Below the pieces are notes generated by a model. It saw only the letters and a list, made by a program, of their open reading frames with translations, was not told where the DNA came from and made no database searches. 34,509 nucleotides of DNA from Cupriavidus gilardii J11 (GTDB lineage Bacteria; Pseudomonadota; Gammaproteobacteria; Burkholderiales; Burkholderiaceae). The stretch is taken from assembly GCF_007829435.1 (NCBI RefSeq), contig NZ_VLJN01000056.1, positions 148,502-183,010 of the forward strand, read 5' to 3'. Positions 370-24,844 of this stretch are shown in pieces (positions within the stretch are counted from its first letter, which is position 1; each line of letters starts with the position of its first letter). The position numbers were made by a program, and so were the translations under genes.

Positions 370-439
370 CCCTCTCCCGCTCGCGGGACAGAGGGCGGGG
401 GAGAGGGTTCGCTTCCCTCTCCCGCAAAGCGGGAGAGGG
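370..439. repeat. GC-rich REP-like palindromes, locus 1 (two copies)
   Basis: Two hairpin-forming units lie back to back after the methyltransferase gene. The clean one is CCCTCTCCCGC, AAA, GCGGGAGAGGG at 415-439. An imperfect copy sits at 370-395. The same core occurs at three other intergenic sites in the window (18071, 21026, 24639). There is no T-tract, so it is not a standard intrinsic terminator, although the RNA could fold and act at the 3' ends of both convergent genes. Confidence 0.8.
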
Positions 440-8242: not shown

Positions 8243-8867
8243 ATGAAGGTCCTGCTGAGAACCGTGCTGTTCTTCGATGCCCTGTTCGACCTGGGCCTCG
8301 CGCTGGTGCTGCTGGTATCGCCATTTGCCACGCTGTACGCCGCGCTGCAGCTGCCCCCGGCCGAGCCGGCGCTGTACGGCCAGCTGCTCGGCCTTGCGCT
8401 GCTGGGTTTCGCATGGCTGCTGGGTCAGGCCGCGTTTCGCGGCGATCTGACACTGCCGGTGGCCCGAATGGCGGGACCCGTGAACCTCGCCAGCGCGCTG
8501 CTTATCGCCGCATGGCTCGTCGTCTTCGATCTCCCGGTGCAGGGCGCGGGCAGGATCTGGCTGGCATTGCTGGCCGCGATGCTGGCTTTCTTCGCGCTGG
8601 TCCAGATGCCGCTGGCCAAGCGGCTGCGCATGCGGCAGCGCGAGGAAGCGCTGCGGCGCGAACTGCGGCAGACCCAACCCCCAGGCTCGCCGACCGTCGC
8701 TCCCGATGCCGGCGCGCCAGTAACCCCGGGCGGCGCGCCAAATGGCGCGCGGCCCTCGCCATCCCCCGAAGTACGGCGCGAGCCGGTCATCACGCCGCCA
8801 CCGGGCTATGGGCCCGGTACCGAAGTGGTGTCCGAACCCGAGCCGACCGACACGTCATCTGTCCATC

Positions 8868-8893
<26 letters not shown>
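8243..8893 (+). CDS. Small membrane protein between guaB and guaA, proline-rich tail
   Basis: I do not recognise a named family. The 216-residue product has four hydrophobic segments in its first ~130 residues (about 5-35, 45-65, 75-98 and 103-122). A charged stretch follows ([16 protein letters not shown]), then a low-complexity Pro/Gly/Ala-rich cytosolic or periplasmic tail. AAGGAGA lies just before the ATG at 8243, a strong ribosome site. The last 26 bases overlap the start of guaA in another frame. Because guaA has no Shine-Dalgarno of its own, translation of this gene may feed guaA. It lies 126 bp after guaB. Any role in purine metabolism is only suggested by position. Confidence 0.82.
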
Positions 8894-10487
<1,594 letters not shown>

Positions 10488-10534
10488 TTTAGTGTCTGGT
10501 ATTGGCCGGCACTACACAGCACCAAAACACATCT

Positions 10535-10560
10535 AAGCCCGCATAATTGCGGGCTTTTTT
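10535..10560 (+). terminator. guaA intrinsic terminator
   Basis: The stem AAGCCCGC / GCGGGCTT has loop ATAATT and is followed by a run of six T residues. It lies 48 nt after the guaA stop and marks the edge of the guaB-guaA unit and of the accessory block beyond. Confidence 0.93.
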
Positions 10561-10663
10561 ATTGTTCCGTTTGGTATGGCTTGGCAACTTTGGGCATCGT
10601 CAAGCACCACTTTTTTATGGCATAGTCGGTGGCTTCAAGTCTTCACAATGCATGTTCGGTGCT

Positions 10664-10702
10664 CGATACCATGCGGCCATAGACGGACGTTTCATGGTAT
10701 CG
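10664..10702. promoter_or_regulatory. Perfect 10-bp inverted repeat upstream of the vWA gene
   Basis: CGATACCATG at 10664-10673 recurs as CATGGTATCG at 10693-10702, 19 nt apart, in the 283-bp gap between guaA and the vWA gene. The arm spacing is about two helical turns for a regulator, or it may form an RNA hairpin. The repeat is directly visible. I could not place a clear -35/-10 pair near it. Confidence 0.5.
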
Positions 10703-10770
10703 GAATCGCCTAACTCATTGATCCCGTCGTGCGCCATGTGTTGCCGGGCGGATCGGAACGGAGAAGCAGA

Positions 10771-11925
10771 ATGGCGACCGTGCAAGTTCGTAGTTTGGCG
10801 ACGTGGGTGTTTGCTCTTACCCTTATCGGCTGGGCAAACGTTTCAATCGCTGAGGAAGCAGGGGCGAACCGTAACAAGGCCGTTGCCCAGCAAAGCGCAG
10901 CAGGGCGTTCGGCGGAGGCTCAAGCCTATGTTGCGCAGTTCACAAAAAAGAATCCGGACGCGTGCTTCAAAAACGTGGATCTCAAGGACACGAAGTTGCA
11001 AGGACCGGCCGGGGGCATCGGCCCACGGGTTCCTCCGACCCGCGTGATTGTGATGATCGACGGCTCCGGTTCGATGGCCGGGCGGATGGGCGGAAAGACC
11101 AAGCTTGAACTGGCGCGAGAGGCGGCGCTCGGTTTTGTGAACCGGTTGCCGGCTTCTGTGCAGGCGTCGTTGCTGGTGTTTGGACAGCAGGGAAACAACA
11201 CCAATGCGGGCAAGGCCAAATCCTGTTCAACGATCGACGTCCTCGCACCGATGTCGACGGACAGAGGGCCGCTTCGGAGGGCGCTGGGGCAGGTCCATGC
11301 GGTTGGCTGGACACCGCTCGCCGCCGGGCTTGACCGTGCCGAGGCGCTCCTCGGAGCTTCCTCTACGCCTGGCGAGCAGATCATCTATGTCGTATCCGAT
11401 GGCGAAGAAACCTGCGGCGGTGATCCCGTGGCATCGGCCCGGCGGATCAACGGCGGGCGCACGCGGGCCATCGTCAACGTGATCGGCTTCAACCTGCCGT
11501 CGAGCGAGGCCGCGAAGCTGAGGACGGTCGCACAGGCTGGCGGCGGAGCATTCGTCAACGTGTCGAACCAGGCGGAGCTTGACAGGGTGACGGCGGAGGT
11601 GCGCGAGTCCCTCCGGCGCACGGACAATGAGGTGGCAACCAGTCTGGCCACCACCGACAATGACGTTGCGACCAGCATCGCCATCACCGACGCCGATACG
11701 TGTATCAGCAACCTCACGACGGATGAGGACGTAGCCATGTCCCTTGACCTCACGGATCGCGCGGTCAGCGGGCGGCCCGTTCCCTTCCAGGAGGAAGCCA
11801 AGGCCTTGTTGAAGGCGCGTCACGATGCGCTCCGGGCGAGACTTCAAGCGTATCGCGCGCAACTGACCGGCGCGGAAGCCGCCGCCAAGAAGAGAATCGA
11901 TGCCGCAGCCGATGCGGCTCGCTAA
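10771..11925 (+). CDS. Secreted von Willebrand factor A (vWA) domain protein with 11-residue tandem repeats
   Basis: This 384-residue protein has a signal peptide (residues ~1-26, hydrophobic WVFALTLIGWANVSIA, cleavage likely near A-E-E), so it is exported. A single vWA domain follows, with a complete metal-binding MIDAS site: DGSGS (Asp97, Ser99, Ser101), Thr181 in GWTPLAAGL and Asp210 in VVSDGEETCGG. Residues 284-327 are four tandem 11-residue units of pattern TDxxVATSxxx. The C-terminal ~50 residues look helical and charged. The ATG at 10771 is chosen because GGAGA precedes it and the signal peptide begins there. vWA domains usually bind protein partners; none is evident nearby. Base composition seems less GC-rich than guaA. 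Role unknown. Confidence 0.85.
   Translation: MATVQVRSLATWVFALTLIGWANVSIAEEAGANRNKAVAQQSAAGRSAEAQAYVAQFTKKNPDACFKNVDLKDTKLQGPAGGIGPRVPPTRVIVMIDGSGSMAGRMGGKTKLELAREAALGFVNRLPASVQASLLVFGQQGNNTNAGKAKSCSTIDVLAPMSTDRGPLRRALGQVHAVGWTPLAAGLDRAEALLGASSTPGEQIIYVVSDGEETCGGDPVASARRINGGRTRAIVNVIGFNLPSSEAAKLRTVAQAGGGAFVNVSNQAELDRVTAEVRESLRRTDNEVATSLATTDNDVATSIAITDADTCISNLTTDEDVAMSLDLTDRAVSGRPVPFQEEAKALLKARHDALRARLQAYRAQLTGAEAAAKKRIDAAADAAR
11620..11751 (+). repeat. Four tandem 33-nt/11-residue repeats inside the vWA gene
   Basis: The encoded units are TDNEVATSLAT, TDNDVATSIAI, TDADTCISNLT and TDEDVAMSLDL, followed by a partial fifth unit, TDRAVSG. Units 1 and 2 are most alike and unit 3 has diverged. The recurring acidic residues at positions 2 and 4 could bind a cation or make a regular solenoid, but that is inference. 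Confidence 0.8.
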
Positions 11926-11982
11926 CCATTAGTTGACCGACAGGGTGCGCTTTTGAAGACCCCCATAGTTGTATAGCCGATA

Positions 11983-12036
11983 TTGGACGAATACCTGTAA
12001 TTCAGATATTCTGCGTTTATCTGCATAACGGATAAA
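11983..12036 (+). promoter_or_regulatory. hipBA promoter/operator region with two inverted repeats
   Basis: Two dyads lie just before hipB. At 11990-12010 the pattern is AATAnCTG-taatt-CAGnTATT. At 12016-12036 it is TTTATC-N9-GATAAA. The second resembles the TATCC-N8-GGATA operators bound by E. coli HipB. A weak promoter (TTGGAC at 11983, GATATT at 12005) runs through the first dyad, so HipB binding would block it. The dyads are visible; the link to HipB is inference from the family. Confidence 0.6.
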
Positions 12037-12041
12037 GCGTC

Positions 12042-12305
12042 ATGTCGCCTACATCGCATCCGCTGGTGACGACCGGCCAGCTGGGATCAATGCTGCAGGC
12101 CGCGCGCAAGGCGCAGGGACTGACTCAGTCCGCACTGGCTGCTCGTATTGGCCTGAGCCAGTCGCGGGTCTCTCATTTGGAACTCAATGCCCACGAGCTG
12201 AGCGTGGGCCAACTCCTTGCATGGTGTGCAGCGCTTGGCCTGGAGTTGGCCGTTGGACCCCGGGGCGGCGCTACCGGGTTTGCTGCGTCGACACCGGATT
12301 GGTGA
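12042..12305 (+). CDS. hipB: HipB-type antitoxin / XRE-family repressor
   Basis: This 87-residue DNA-binding protein has a classic Cro/CI helix-turn-helix spanning about residues 14-70 (LGSMLQAARKAQGLTQSALAAR and IGLSQSRVSHLELNAHELS). HipB proteins bind operator dyads before their own operon and neutralise the HipA kinase. The assignment rests on the adjacent hipA, only 1 nt after the stop, and on the inverted repeats upstream. The C-terminal stretch after GLELAV is short and Gly/Ala-rich, compatible with the flexible tail of HipB. No strong Shine-Dalgarno precedes the ATG. Confidence 0.88.
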   Translation: MSPTSHPLVTTGQLGSMLQAARKAQGLTQSALAARIGLSQSRVSHLELNAHELSVGQLLAWCAALGLELAVGPRGGATGFAASTPDW

Positions 12306-12306
12306 C

Positions 12307-13647
12307 ATGGGGCGCCGATCGCACCGCCGCAGCTTGTCCATCTGGACCAACGGTGTCTGGGTGGGCCGGTGGACGATTTCCGCTCGCGGCGAGATGGAAC
12401 TGCAGTATGACGCGGACTGGGTCAGTGCCGATATTGGCCGACCTCTATCGTTGTCGCTGCCGTTCAATCTCCAGAACCTGCCGGTCAAGGGCGAGAGGGT
12501 CGCCAACTATTTCGACAACCTCTTGCCGGACAGCGACGCGATTCGCCGCCGCGTGGCCGAGCGATTCAGGACGGGTTCGACAGAGCCATTTGACTTGCTG
12601 AAGGCCATCGGGCGCGATTGCGTGGGCGCCGTTCAGATTCTGGATGAGGACGAGGTGCCCACCGATTTTGATCGGGTCGATGGCGTGCCCCTGTCCGAGG
12701 AGGATATCGAGCGTCACTTGATCGAAACCGTTTCGCCGCATGCCTTCCCTGCGAGCAGGGACCCAAACGAGGACTTTCGCATCTCGCTGGCCGGTGCCCA
12801 GGAGAAGACAGCCTTCTTGTGGTGGCGCGGGCAATGGCTTGCGCCGCGTGGCGCCACGCCAACGAGCCACATCTTCAAGCTTCCGCTCGGTCTGATGGGC
12901 GGGCGGCGGGCGGACTTCGGCACGTCCGTCGACAACGAATGGCTGTGCCTGAGGCTGCTGAAGGCCTACGGGCTGAATGCTGCCGATGCCAGCATCGCGA
13001 CCTTTGGCGGTCAGCGCGTGCTCGTGGTGGAGCGTTTTGACCGGCGCGTTGCGCCGAATGGGCAGTGGCTCATGCGTCTGCCACAGGAAGATTTTTGCCA
13101 GGTCGAGGGTTGCTCGCCATTGCGAAAATACGAGAACGAGGGCGGTCCCGGGCTCAAGGTCCTGTTCGGCACGCTGCGGCAATCGGTGAACGCAGAGGCC
13201 GACATGAAGGCGCTGATGGCGACACAAGTGCTGTTCTGGTTATTGCGGGCGCCCGATGGCCATGCCAAGAATTTCAGCATCCAGCTTCTGCCTCGTGGTC
13301 GCTTTCAATTGACTCCACTGTACGACGTGATGTCGGTCTATCCGGTGTTGGGGAATGGTCCCAACCAGTGGCCGCCATATGAAACAAGGTTGGCGATGGC
13401 CTTGCTCGGCAAGAACCGGCATTACGAAATGCAAGGCATCCAGCGCCGGCACTTCAACAGCACCGCGCGGAAGGTGGGCTATGCGTCGAGCGCCGAGCCG
13501 ATCATCGAAGAAATCCTTGCCCGGACCCCGGCGGCCATCGCCGAAGTGCAAGCCGAGCTGCCACAAGGTTTCTCGGCGCGTGTCGCCGAGGCCGTACTGG
13601 GCGGGCTTGAGCAGGCCGCTAAAGCACTCGGTGGGATGGCGCCGTAA
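12307..13647 (+). CDS. hipA: HipA-type serine/threonine kinase toxin
   Basis: HipA toxins phosphorylate a cellular target (glutamyl-tRNA synthetase in E. coli), halting translation and inducing persistence. The 446-residue product has the N-terminal HipA_N subdomain (SIWTNGVWVGRW; SLSLPFNL; YFDNLLPDSDAIRRRVA). The kinase core follows: RISLAGAQEKTAFLW holds the Gly-rich loop with Ser160, equivalent to the autophosphorylated Ser150 of E. coli, and APDGHAKNFS holds the catalytic Asp317. LTPLYDVMS supplies the metal-binding Asp. All key residues are present, so the toxin looks intact. The ATG at 12307 lies 1 nt after the hipB stop; upstream in-frame sequence is inside hipB and has no resemblance. 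The length matches E. coli HipA (440). Confidence 0.94.
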   Translation: MGRRSHRRSLSIWTNGVWVGRWTISARGEMELQYDADWVSADIGRPLSLSLPFNLQNLPVKGERVANYFDNLLPDSDAIRRRVAERFRTGSTEPFDLLKAIGRDCVGAVQILDEDEVPTDFDRVDGVPLSEEDIERHLIETVSPHAFPASRDPNEDFRISLAGAQEKTAFLWWRGQWLAPRGATPTSHIFKLPLGLMGGRRADFGTSVDNEWLCLRLLKAYGLNAADASIATFGGQRVLVVERFDRRVAPNGQWLMRLPQEDFCQVEGCSPLRKYENEGGPGLKVLFGTLRQSVNAEADMKALMATQVLFWLLRAPDGHAKNFSIQLLPRGRFQLTPLYDVMSVYPVLGNGPNQWPPYETRLAMALLGKNRHYEMQGIQRRHFNSTARKVGYASSAEPIIEEILARTPAAIAEVQAELPQGFSARVAEAVLGGLEQAAKALGGMAP

Positions 13648-13815
13648 CCAGAAGCGACGGCGTGCCAATGCGTGATTGGGCGTGTGTTTTGCAACGCCTC
13701 GGTCGCCACCCTTTGAGATTGGACCGATGTTCGACCCGGTCCGCCTCCGTGGCAACTTACCCACACGCCGCCCTGGCGTTGTGATGTGCGCAGCTGCGGT
13801 CCCTATGCGGCAACC

Positions 13816-13890
13816 GCCGATTGATCGGCGCGCGTACGGCGAGCCTTGAGGCGGTTGTCACTTGACAACCAAATCCATCTCTTACACACT
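13816..13890 (+). promoter_or_regulatory. Palindromic operator overlapping a consensus -35, before the HicA-like gene
   Basis: The 18-bp palindrome GGTTGTCA-CT-TGACAACC occupies 13853-13870. Its right arm contains a perfect -35 hexamer, TTGACA (13862-13867). A 17-bp spacer leads to CACACT (13885-13890), a weak -10. A second palindrome, GCCGAT-TG-ATCGGC, lies at 13816-13829, and CAACCGCC at 13811 pairs with GGCGGTTG at 13850. Transcription would start only a few bases before the ATG at 13901. The arrangement suggests a repressor that shuts its own promoter. Confidence 0.72.
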
Positions 13891-13900
13891 GGATATCGTC

Positions 13901-14176
13901 ATGGTCCGTCCATCCCACCCCAAGAAGGATGTTGAACAAGCGCTGCGGCATGCCGAAGCGCACGGGTGGCGGGTGGAGACCGGCGGTAGCCACGCTTGGG
14001 GGCGAATCTATTGTCCCTATAACGACGACGCGTGTCGTTGCGGCGAGTTCTGCATCGCAAGCGTATGGAGCACGCCGAGGAACCCGGGTAACCATGCTCT
14101 GGCGCTGCGGCGCGTGGTTGACAGATGCACAACACACCGCTGGCAGCATTACGTCGATGACCCAGTCGAGGAGTAA
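13901..14176 (+). CDS. Small HicA-like protein with a cysteine cluster (putative toxin)
   Basis: The 91-residue product is not a named family that I can assign. Its first half resembles the HicA mRNA-interferase fold: KKDVEQALRHAEAHGWRVE is a helix followed by a strand, and GGSHAWG (His31) matches the Gly-Ser-His motif carrying the catalytic histidine of HicA. The second half is different: Cys38, Cys45, Cys47 and Cys51 (CPY...CRCGEFC) could bind a metal, then STPRNPGNHALALRRVVD makes a helix. The ATG at 13901 is preferred to a TTG at 13862, which falls inside the operator and -35 box. The gene runs directly into the next with a 4-nt gap. Toxin function is inference from the fold and layout. 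Confidence 0.75.
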   Translation: MVRPSHPKKDVEQALRHAEAHGWRVETGGSHAWGRIYCPYNDDACRCGEFCIASVWSTPRNPGNHALALRRVVDRCTTHRWQHYVDDPVEE

Positions 14177-14180
14177 CCCG

Positions 14181-14705
14181 ATGGAATACCACTTCACTTT
14201 GAAGTACCAACTCGCTGACCATGATCGCGATGCAGACGCACTGGTTGAGCGGCTGGGCGCGGCGGGTTGCGACGATGCGCTGATAGGCATCGGGCAGCCC
14301 GGAAGACTCGCGTTGGAGTTCACCCGCGAGGCTGGCAATGCAGAGGCGGCCGTGCGCAGCGCGCTGGCCGACGTGCGCCGCGCCGTCCCGTCCGCCAGCC
14401 TGATCGAGGTCGCGCCCGATCTGGTCGGACTGACGGACGTGGCCGAGATCGTAGGCGTGTCGCGGCAGAACATGCGCAAGCTGATGCTGTCCCATCCCGG
14501 CAGCTTTCCCGTACCGGTGCATGAGGGCAGTGCGTCGATCTGGCATCTTGCCGACGTGTTGTCGTGGCTGCGCCAGAAGGGCGGTTATCCGGTGACCCCG
14601 GAAGTCATCGAGGTGGCAGCCGTTGCGATGCAGGTGAATCTGGCCAAGGAAGGACGGCGGTTGTCGCGTTCAGCTTCCGCGGCCATGGAAGCGTTGGCCG
14701 GATAA
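14181..14705 (+). CDS. DNA-binding protein with winged-helix domain (putative antitoxin/repressor of the HicA-like gene)
   Basis: This 174-residue protein has two visible parts. Residues 1-75 contain alternating strands and helices (HFTLKYQL; DALVERLGAAGCDDALIGIG; ALEFTREA), possibly an alpha/beta partner-binding domain. Residues 80-135 form an AlpA/excisionase-like winged helix: GLTDVAEIVGVSRQNMRKLM is a helix-turn-helix and VHEGSASIWHLADVLSWL a wing and last helix. GAGGAG at 14168-14173, across the upstream stop, is the ribosome site. I do not know a described family name. Position after a HicA-like gene, plus the palindromic operator, suggests antitoxin and autorepressor. The order toxin-first is the same as in hicAB. 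Confidence 0.78.
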   Translation: MEYHFTLKYQLADHDRDADALVERLGAAGCDDALIGIGQPGRLALEFTREAGNAEAAVRSALADVRRAVPSASLIEVAPDLVGLTDVAEIVGVSRQNMRKLMLSHPGSFPVPVHEGSASIWHLADVLSWLRQKGGYPVTPEVIEVAAVAMQVNLAKEGRRLSRSASAAMEALAG

Positions 14706-14853
14706 GGCCAACGTAGATGCCAGCCCCGGCACAAACTCCGCTTCGAAACGCCGCGCACAGCGCGGCAAGGGAATTGGCCGCGGGCTTGCGCAATACGCCT
14801 GACTAGAATGTCGTCATTGCCAATCGCACCCATGCCGAAAGGGCCCCATCCCG

Positions 14854-15270
14854 ATGACAAGATCCGCGCGCACGCCTCCACCGGCATCCGGTGGCGATCC
14901 TTTCGTTGAGCATCTCCTGGACCTGATGGCGCCGCTTGCCGCGCGCATCGGCCCATTTCGGGCGCGACCCATGTTCGGCGGCCATGGCATTTACCACGAC
15001 GGATTGATGTTCGCGCTGGTGTCGAATGGCCGCTGCTATCTGAAGGCGGACGAGCATACGGTCGCGGCCTTCGCGGAGCAGGGCTGTGAGCCTTTCCGAT
15101 ATCGCGGCGCGCGGGGCGAAGTCACGATGCGCGGCTATTTGACCTTGCCGGAGACCTGTCTGGAGTCTGCCAGCGAGATGTCGCACTGGGCCCGCCTCGC
15201 CCTGGAGGCCAGTCTTCGAAACGCCAACAAGCCGGCCGCCAGAGCCAGACGGCGCGCGACCCGGGAGTGA
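14854..15270 (+). CDS. TfoX N-terminal domain protein
   Basis: The 138-residue protein consists of one TfoX/Sxy N-terminal domain: FVEHLLDLMAPL, then ARPMFGGHGIYHDGLMFALV, KADEHT and a C-terminal SHWARLALEASLRN helix. In gammaproteobacteria, Sxy/TfoX uses this domain plus a C-terminal one to control competence genes. Here the C-terminal domain is missing, as in many short stand-alone members of no known role. The tail is rich in Ala and Arg. The Shine-Dalgarno is poor (AAAGGG 11 nt upstream). The gene lies alone, 148 bp after the HicA-like pair. Confidence 0.85.
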   Translation: MTRSARTPPPASGGDPFVEHLLDLMAPLAARIGPFRARPMFGGHGIYHDGLMFALVSNGRCYLKADEHTVAAFAEQGCEPFRYRGARGEVTMRGYLTLPETCLESASEMSHWARLALEASLRNANKPAARARRRATRE

Positions 15271-15320
15271 AGGGCTGGCTCGCGCTCTTGTCCCTGACGC
15301 GAGCCATTTCCGACCCAAAT

Positions 15321-15389
15321 TTTAGCTTTCGCTTAACTTTTTTGCTATTTGGCCGCGTAACGCAAGCAATCTGCGACGCAAACGCTAAA
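15321..15389. promoter_or_regulatory. AT-richer upstream region of the XRE regulator with an interrupted inverted repeat
   Basis: TTTAGCTTT at 15321-15329 faces AAACGCTAAA at 15380-15389, giving the shared half-site TTTAGCnTT in inverted orientation about 50 bp apart. A small palindrome, GCGTAACGC, lies between them. Such paired half-sites would suit the XRE protein encoded just downstream, but no binding evidence exists here and no clear -35/-10 pair was placed. Confidence 0.35.
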
Positions 15390-15472
15390 TGCGTCCCAAA
15401 AGTCGTAGATCGATAGGACACTATAGGCTGTCATTCGTCCCATTACATCTTCTCTCCATTGGGGGACCGAGA

Positions 15473-15763
15473 ATGACATCCAAAGCTTCACTCGCGGTGG
15501 CACTGAAGTCAGTTCGCAAGGCGCGCGGCCTGAGCCAGGAGGCCTTTTCCGTGGTGTCCAGCCGCACCTATCTCAGCTCGCTGGAACGCGGCCTCAAGAG
15601 CCCGACATTAAGCAAGCTGTGCGCGCTGTGCGAGGTGCTTGAAATCCATCCTCTGACACTGCTGACGCTGGCTTATGCATCGGACGGCACCGATGTGGCG
15701 CGCTTGCTGTCGCGTGTGCAGAGCGAAGTGGCGTCCATCAGCGTGCGGCGCTTTGCCCGCTGA
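15473..15763 (+). CDS. XRE-family transcriptional regulator
   Basis: This 96-residue protein is a single Cro/CI-type helix-turn-helix: LAVALKSVRKARGLSQEAFS, then SSRTYLSSLERGLKSPTLSKL as recognition helix region, and LEIHPLTLLTLAY closing the domain. The remaining ~30 residues form a probable helix for dimerisation. GGGGGA lies 6 nt before the ATG at 15473; the frame is open further upstream without resemblance. There is no toxin-like partner next to it: the downstream gene is an unrelated MFS permease on the other strand. Its target is unknown, possibly its own promoter. Confidence 0.88.
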   Translation: MTSKASLAVALKSVRKARGLSQEAFSVVSSRTYLSSLERGLKSPTLSKLCALCEVLEIHPLTLLTLAYASDGTDVARLLSRVQSEVASISVRRFAR

Positions 15764-21025: not shown

Positions 21026-21049
21026 CCCTCTCCCGCTTGCGGGAGAGGG
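21026..21049. repeat. GC-rich REP-like palindrome, locus 3
   Basis: CCCTCTCCCGC, TT, GCGGGAGAGGG: a perfect 11-bp arm pair, the same unit as the other three loci. It lies in the 310-bp stretch between ldcA and the ABC-F gene (20968-21277). Apart from this and the promoter at 21108, I see no gene or RNA in that stretch. Confidence 0.82.
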
Positions 21050-24638: not shown

Positions 24639-24726
24639 CCCTCTCCCGCGCGCGGGAGAGGGGAGAAAACCAGCGGGGTTTCAAACGCTGTCGGTGTGCG
24701 CCCCTCTCCCGCGCGCGGGAGAGGGG
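24639..24726. repeat. GC-rich REP-like palindromes, locus 4 (two copies)
   Basis: Two perfect palindromes occupy 24639-24662 (CCCTCTCCCGCG and its complement) and 24701-24726 (CCCCTCTCCCGCG and its complement), 38 nt apart. They carry the same core as the three other loci. They lie in the 263-bp gap between the aldehyde dehydrogenase and the acylase genes, with no T-tract. Confidence 0.85.
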
Positions 24727-24844
24727 CGGGGGAGAGGGCATTCACCGCATCGTCGAACCGCCCCACCGGAACCCTCCAGGCCACCCCACGTGGCATTCAA
24801 AAAAATACCAATAAGCAGGACCGTATCGTTTGCGGGAGGAGCAC

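Follow-up and report, generated by a model that had tools for sequence, protein, structure and literature searches.

A conserved palindrome over the -35 box of a predicted, nearly leaderless promoter before the PDC-M06 gene pair of Cupriavidus gilardii J11

The palindrome GGTTGTCA-CT-TGACAACC (18 bp, positions 13853..13870, no strand assigned) is well supported by sequence comparison as an operator lying over the -35 box of a self-repressed promoter. Positions are those of the window, the whole stretch of 34,509 nucleotides of Cupriavidus gilardii J11 DNA that was analysed. The promoter precedes two adjacent genes on the plus strand. M06A (13901..14176, 91 aa; PADLOC model PDC-M06A, E 7e-50) is a candidate toxin that is possibly HicA-like, and M06B (14181..14705, 174 aa; PDC-M06B, E 5.7e-85) is the proposed antitoxin and repressor, for which the palindrome would be the operator. 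An antitoxin-only promoter is the best reading of the layout. The full account, in which a sigma-70-type promoter with an M06B operator is repressed by its own product, stands before a toxin/antitoxin-like pair and mainly refills the antitoxin, is considered fairly likely from the sequences and from analogy with known operons.

The palindrome in the window and in related loci

The two 8-bp arms (13853-13860 and 13863-13870) are perfect, with CT in the middle, and TTGACA lies inside the palindrome at 13862-13867. The sequence-only reading, which had reported this palindrome and the hexamer in it, was exact in both sequence and coordinates. A search with up to three mismatches gave one occurrence in the window, against 0.11 expected from shuffles, and no second place in the 4.88-Mb genome. 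Significance of the palindrome by itself in the window was rejected. Perfect inverted repeats with arms of at least 8 and a loop of at most 4 gave 17 hits at ten places, and 30 simulated first-order Markov sequences gave a mean of 6.9 hits of the same class (range 2-14), so several such palindromes are expected there anyway. The palindrome stands out from chance because it is kept before homologous pairs and is restricted to these loci. A separate, REP-like repeated palindrome, CCCTCTCCCGC...GCGGGAGAGGG, was seen at four places in the window (415-439, 21026-21049, 24639-24662 and 24699-24728).

A palindrome not conserved before homologous gene pairs would have counted against the earlier reading, which survived this check: among 80 homologous loci whose M06A start could be read, 76 had TTGTC-N4-GACA at the same place. 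The four misses were L028, which has a poly-G/C stretch, L032, with one arm base off, L059 and L085. A duplicate (L001) and six loci with an unaligned M06A start (L009, L010, L031, L078, L084 and L087) were dropped before this count. The palindrome-bearing M06A homologues range from proteobacteria to Planktothrix. Relatives are not independent; the loci with an extracted M06B form 24 clusters at 75% M06B identity.

Restriction to these loci was followed in a sample of 148 genomes, the window's own genome included, 50 of which have M06B matches. The exact 16-bp core occurs in 29 of the 148, in all 29 at the M06 locus and as the sole exact copy in each; in G033 it lies on the strand opposite to M06B. 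Nine further genomes have the core at M06 with one mismatch, and eleven have a one-mismatch copy elsewhere only. Twelve of the 50 genomes with an M06B match are without a site at M06 at up to one mismatch, and several of these have partial M06B matches. Among viral contigs, the core was found in 62 stretches and the pair was seen in one (L160).

Some loci differ in arrangement. In G014 the palindrome lies approximately 1.7 kb from M06B, with a probable insertion between them. In G008 it lies only 98 bp before M06B, which is too short for a whole M06A, so this is probably another locus without that gene. A conserved block around GACAATTCTCC was observed ~20-45 nt upstream of the palindrome in L017, L025-L027, L029, L030, L100, L108 and L117. 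It was seen in one clade, with variants in L024 and L212, and may mark a promoter further upstream or some other site.

Promoter, leader and ribosome sites

The right arm of the palindrome supplies the -35 box TTGACA (13862..13867, plus strand), whose completing T is kept in relatives. A 17-bp spacer separates it from the -10 box CACACT (13885..13890, plus strand), which is weak here, matching TATAAT at 3 of 6 positions, and is often CATACT in relatives. The ATG of M06A at 13901 lies 10 nt past CACACT. With the start assumed 7 nt after the -10 box, transcription would begin at 13897 and leave a predicted leader of 4 nt (13897..13900, plus strand); the claimed layout of a 17-bp spacer and a start about 4 nt before the ATG was thereby confirmed as a prediction. 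A consensus scan of 13500-14300 found no promoter, the CACACT promoter included, and neither an upstream promoter nor a terminator.

The layout recurs in the 98 related loci compared. The spacer is 17 in 91 of them, the -35 box is TTGACA in 91, and the -10 box has at least four matches in 73. At spacer 17, both A2 and T6 of the hexamer were found in 67 of the 71 M06 sites; for occurrences of the motif lacking the pair, counted strand-wise, the figure was 10 of 64. At 96 of 103 sites the T needed to complete TTGACA is conserved, and its mirror base is unconstrained (A in 21 of 103), so a -35 function comes in addition to the symmetry. Positions 3-7 and 12-15 are set by the motif pattern itself, so those columns are invariant by the way the sites were selected. 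Two features of the original proposal, a palindrome over the -35 box and a predicted start that leaves almost no leader, are thus conserved among related loci.

Under the same assumed start, the predicted leader is 6 nt or shorter in 85 of 98 loci, five of which have a doubtful -10 or start call (L192, L209, L210, L211 and L230). In 80 of the 98, 9-12 nt lie between the -10 box and the start codon, corresponding to a leader of 3-6 nt. Longer leaders carrying a Shine-Dalgarno sequence were found in L186, L082, L068, L227 and L228.

A leader this short bears on translation of M06A. In the window, the weak counterpart of its Shine-Dalgarno sequence is GGA (13891..13893, plus strand; -3.1 kcal/mol), placed between the -10 box and the predicted start. 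M06B is preceded by GAGGAG (14168..14173, plus strand; -8.4 kcal/mol), read from the sequence. Relatives mostly have GGAG, GAGG or AGGA before M06A. At a threshold of -4 kcal/mol or lower, an M06A Shine-Dalgarno sequence is available in 78 of 98 loci if transcribed from upstream and in 3 of 98 from the predicted start, leaders below 9 nt being scored 0 by rule. The M06B site reaches the threshold in 91 of 98. Because its Shine-Dalgarno sequence lies upstream of the predicted start, M06A is probably not well made from this promoter. The arrangement suggests a promoter that makes the antidote protein and hardly any toxin.

The position of the M06A Shine-Dalgarno sequence was compared between loci with short (9-12 nt) and long spacing from the -10 box to the start codon. 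A Shine-Dalgarno-like 4-mer was found no more than 6 nt from the -10 box in 68 of 84 short-spaced and 2 of 19 long-spaced loci, and near the M06A start codon in 71 of 84 and 12 of 19, respectively; both operator types were pooled, and five loci with less than 9 nt between the -10 box and the start were dropped. The element thus follows the ATG and not the -10 box, which argues for a real ribosome site used mostly on longer RNAs. On the same grounds, GGAG as a promoter discriminator element was disfavoured.

The strongest competing explanation keeps the same operator and promoter and has the short RNA translated nearly leaderless, so that both proteins are made and the toxin-silent step disappears. 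The leader of 3-6 nt in most loci suits this explanation, and the leaderless C-protein RNA of PvuII is described, in the part of the source available, as expected to be efficiently translated. We consider it doubtful, since an M06A Shine-Dalgarno sequence that is kept despite being untranscribed from here, and that tracks the ATG, means that longer RNAs must matter. Leaders of 4-6 nt are also translated less well than true 0-nt leaders, which counts against it.

In the preferred, antitoxin-only reading, an M06B dimer on the two GTTGTC half-sites would cover the -35 box, so that RNA polymerase could not bind. When M06B is short, for instance when titrated by M06A, the promoter would open, by analogy with hicAB. 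The RNA would start ~4-6 nt before the M06A start codon, without the M06A Shine-Dalgarno sequence and with the strong M06B site intact. The promoter would in this way mainly refill the antitoxin, and toxin would come mostly from longer RNAs entering from upstream.

Two loci have lost M06A. L031 keeps the palindrome, the -10 box and an open M06B. In L104 (G033), M06B carries a stop and the centre of the palindrome is turned round compared with that of the related L103.

The protein pair and the two operator types

The adjacent genes match both PDC-M06 models, over residues 1-86 of 91 in M06A and 1-172 of 174 in M06B, which places the pair in PDC-M06, a candidate phage-defence system already listed in PADLOC. 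Curated Pfam and NCBIfam models gave no name for either window protein, and no convincing solved relative was found by sequence for M06A or M06B. A Foldseek search of the PDB with either model gave no match at E <0.001.

M06A may be HicA-like, judging from its sequence and its structural model, with a likeness below the usual thresholds. HicA_toxin (PF07927) gave no match above the curated cut-off in the window protein; among 54 homologues, 2 matched weakly (best E 0.12). The alignment of M06A with 24 HicA sequences by hhalign gave a probability of 43.7 over 20 columns, with 0.6 for a reversed control and 0.9 in global mode. For the M06A model (pLDDT 76), chains with HicA or HicAB in their title scored Z 4.4, 4.2, 4.0 and 3.6, and the pneumococcal toxin-antitoxin complex 5yrz scored Z 4.8. 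Unrelated folds tie with HicA in this comparison (Pup ligase Z 5.0, aminotransferases 4.3), and these scores are below the level of trust. H31 is invariant in 54 of 54 homologues, while the preceding Ser varies, and conserved Cys residues are present too. In a larger set, the His is kept in 110 of 112; the stretch aligns with the G-S-H of HicA, and the window protein also reads G-S-H. H31 may be catalytic in M06A. Single weak matches of M06A to other families, such as Glyoxalase and the telomere-protein Tap, were taken to be at chance level and were set aside.

M06B appears, from a weak family match and its model (pLDDT 92), to combine a ferredoxin-like N-terminal domain with an AlpA-like helix-turn-helix. 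The N-terminal domain matches ferredoxin-like folds at Z ~7-8. Phage_AlpA (PF05930) matched weakly in 38 of 65 M06B members (E <=1, best 1.2e-4) and not in the window protein. No HicB family was among the Pfam matches listed for M06B, and no HicB chain was among the best 50 structural matches listed.

The earlier reading had named the winged-helix protein of the operon as the natural repressor candidate. Its role as the binder of the site is backed by a second operator type; binding and repression themselves are inferred. Divergent pairs have GTTGAC-N4-GTYAAC (11 sites, plus a variant in L195), and include phages Cyrano and SSU5 and a Klebsiella plasmid. In this type the left arm is TTGACA in 11 of 12, so the palindrome is shifted yet still over the -35 box. 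Of the 90 distinct helix/site rows of the GTTGTC type, 87 have the Arg of the M06B helix S/T-R-Q-x-x-R-K, the exceptions being L061, L062 and L192; in all 12 divergent-type pairs this Arg is absent from the recognition helix. Eleven site-less helix rows were left out of this comparison, five of which carry the Arg-type helix (L028, L032, L059, L078 and L194). Because helix and operator switch together, M06B is indicated as the binder; the link follows two branches and may therefore represent one or few events. M06B most likely represses its own operon here, as far as the sequences can indicate. Among loci of the second operator type, the leader is 6 nt or shorter in 4 of 10, and a good M06A Shine-Dalgarno sequence is present in 4 of 10 and inside the RNA in 2 of 10.

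Genomic setting, comparable systems and meaning

The window pair has hipA (Pfam HipA_C) and a hipB-like gene as neighbours, and all of these lie behind guaA, which ends at 10487. Across 8742-15763 the order is guaA, a VWA protein, the hipBA-like genes, M06, a TfoX_N protein and an Xre regulator. The 3' end of guaA is probably an integration hotspot; guaA or its 3' end was also seen shortly upstream of M06 in L008, L009, L033, L066 and L087. Four neighbours were sought around 103 loci (two tyrosine integrases, guaA and hipA). Downstream of a relative of one of the two integrases (Pfam Phage_integrase) were 24 of the 103, guaA was the nearest sought neighbour in 6, and 72 matched none of the four queries in the DNA available around them. 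With guaA and integrases as neighbours, the pair is probably carried as cargo on islands, in some loci immediately behind an integrase. The integrase side could supply a long, toxin-bearing RNA, and read-through from hipBA into the pair is possible.

Mobile elements carry the pair as well. An M06B match was found in 279 plasmid records, many of those listed being ~105-120 kb plasmids of enteric bacteria, which may be SSU5-like phage-plasmids. Phages SSU5 and Cyrano carry the pair, flanked in Cyrano by uvsY and a DNA polymerase III alpha gene. L227, L228 and L231 are loci of this plasmid and phage group.

The match to PHROG 2620 ('excisionase and transcriptional regulator'), the integrase relatives upstream of 24 loci, guaA as nearest sought neighbour in 6 and the place of the window pair behind guaA speak for a reading that takes M06B for an AlpA-like excisionase or integrase regulator, with the palindrome serving genomic islands as a site related to recombination. 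We hold this to be very improbable. The site lies at a nearly fixed distance from M06A, in a promoter layout and with one exact copy per genome, most loci have none of the sought neighbours, and depositors annotated the Cyrano homologues as a HicA toxin and a putative HicB.

The sequences flanking the 18-mer were also compared. Outside it, the flanks are complementary with letters that differ by locus, at least 4 extra pairs being found in 43 of 103 loci. The total run of extra pairs was 295; shuffles averaged 51, none of 10000 reaching 295, and slid controls gave 28-41. Long arms were found in 4 of 52 control motifs that lack the pair, fewer and also above chance. The window palindrome has no extra arm pairs, and many loci have 0. 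Mismatches inside the extended stems were GT in 3, AC in 4 and other in 4, with no G-T excess; the first mismatch beyond the stem was G-T in 11, A-C in 6 and other in 33. Loci with less than 14 nt of flank were dropped from the stem mismatch count. Between 10 and 12 extra perfect pairs were seen in, for example, L019, L055, L031, L030, L033 and L061, and the arms of L104 are 10 bp longer than those of L103. Perfect extensions of 11-12 bp appear singly among relatives with 0 (L029/L030/L031). We read the arms as the product of template-switch mutation, seeded by the palindrome in otherwise free DNA (the spacer and the upstream flank). A T run follows the palindrome in two loci, L066 and L048, which touches on the idea of a terminator of the upstream gene. 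Arm length also went with a nearby gene in the same direction (18 of 23 against 25 of 80, genes being called by a crude ORF score), a link that was discarded as confounded by one integrase-linked clade.

That a hairpin, formed in RNA or by the DNA as a cruciform, does the work in place of a protein-bound duplex site is likewise highly unlikely: the pairing of the arms far beyond chance and the slight lean to RNA in the first mismatch after the stem (G-T 11, A-C 6) speak for it, whereas the arms missing from the window and from many other loci, the lack of a G-T excess inside the stems, the long arms of some pair-less control motifs, and the singly appearing perfect extensions and inverted centre of L104, which fit template switching, speak against it.

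The favoured account, a self-repressed promoter that mainly refills the antitoxin, has parallels in known systems, compared here through the parts of the sources available. E. coli hicAB has a promoter, P2, with the operator hicO near the toxin start, which is repressed by the antitoxin and whose RNA is described as giving antitoxin only (Turnbull and Gerdes 2017, via PMC11594946, PMC5535158 and PMC6957337). As there, the toxin gene comes first here and the promoter lies very near its start codon. Unlike in the accounts of hicAB P2 available, a single palindrome has an arm that is the -35 box, and the layout extends over ~100 related loci. M06A and M06B are, moreover, not HicA and HicB by curated sequence models, and the DNA-binding part of M06B is AlpA-like. 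H. influenzae toxTA also has an antitoxin-repressed downstream promoter P2, whose RNA is, in its authors' reading as far as the source was available, unlikely to give active toxin. Its reads begin ~30 bp inside the toxin gene, in contrast to the present layout, and in the part of that paper available its proteins have no detectable HicAB homology.

Y. pestis HicB3, in the source text available, likewise has inverted-repeat antitoxin operators, BS1 and BS2, the main one overlapping a promoter box. There, the main operator BS2 overlaps the -10 box, the promoter is a single upstream one, and the HicB is of RHH type. The alpA-parA-shi genes of ICEclc, as far as described in the text available, resemble the pair in that an integrative element encodes a regulator of AlpA type together with a small protein related to HicA. 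They differ in that alpA comes first with a start mapped 39 bases upstream, and in that Shi works with ParA and alone does not stop growth.

Both window proteins match PDC-M06 in PADLOC, whose library holds protein models only. A main-text search of the literature for that name found no description of its mechanism or regulation. Gerdes 2024 (PMC10865869) describes 14 HicA classes, and the words 'AlpA' and 'PADLOC' are absent from its main text, the part consulted.

On this account the operon is a variant of the known autoregulated toxin-first operon, and the protein pair itself is already in PADLOC. The new point, taken from the sequences, is that the conserved Shine-Dalgarno sequence of M06A would be cut off by the predicted start while that of M06B is kept. 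The site makes the pair open to test through its defined operator, the likely repressor, a code visible on both the operator and the helix side, and a layout from which toxin-poor expression is predicted. Should toxin-first pairs generally be built with P2-type promoters, these ~100 related promoters would show it at the sequence level, beyond the few cases described.

A further view, to which we give little weight, is that the pair is a read-through sensor whose own promoter is built never to make toxin. Toxin would then appear only when foreign or neighbouring transcription (from an island integrase, by host read-through or altered by a phage) crosses the site, and phage shut-off of host promoters would stop the supply of antitoxin. 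If this were true, PDC-M06 would do its sensing through the block of -35 box, operator and untranscribed Shine-Dalgarno sequence.
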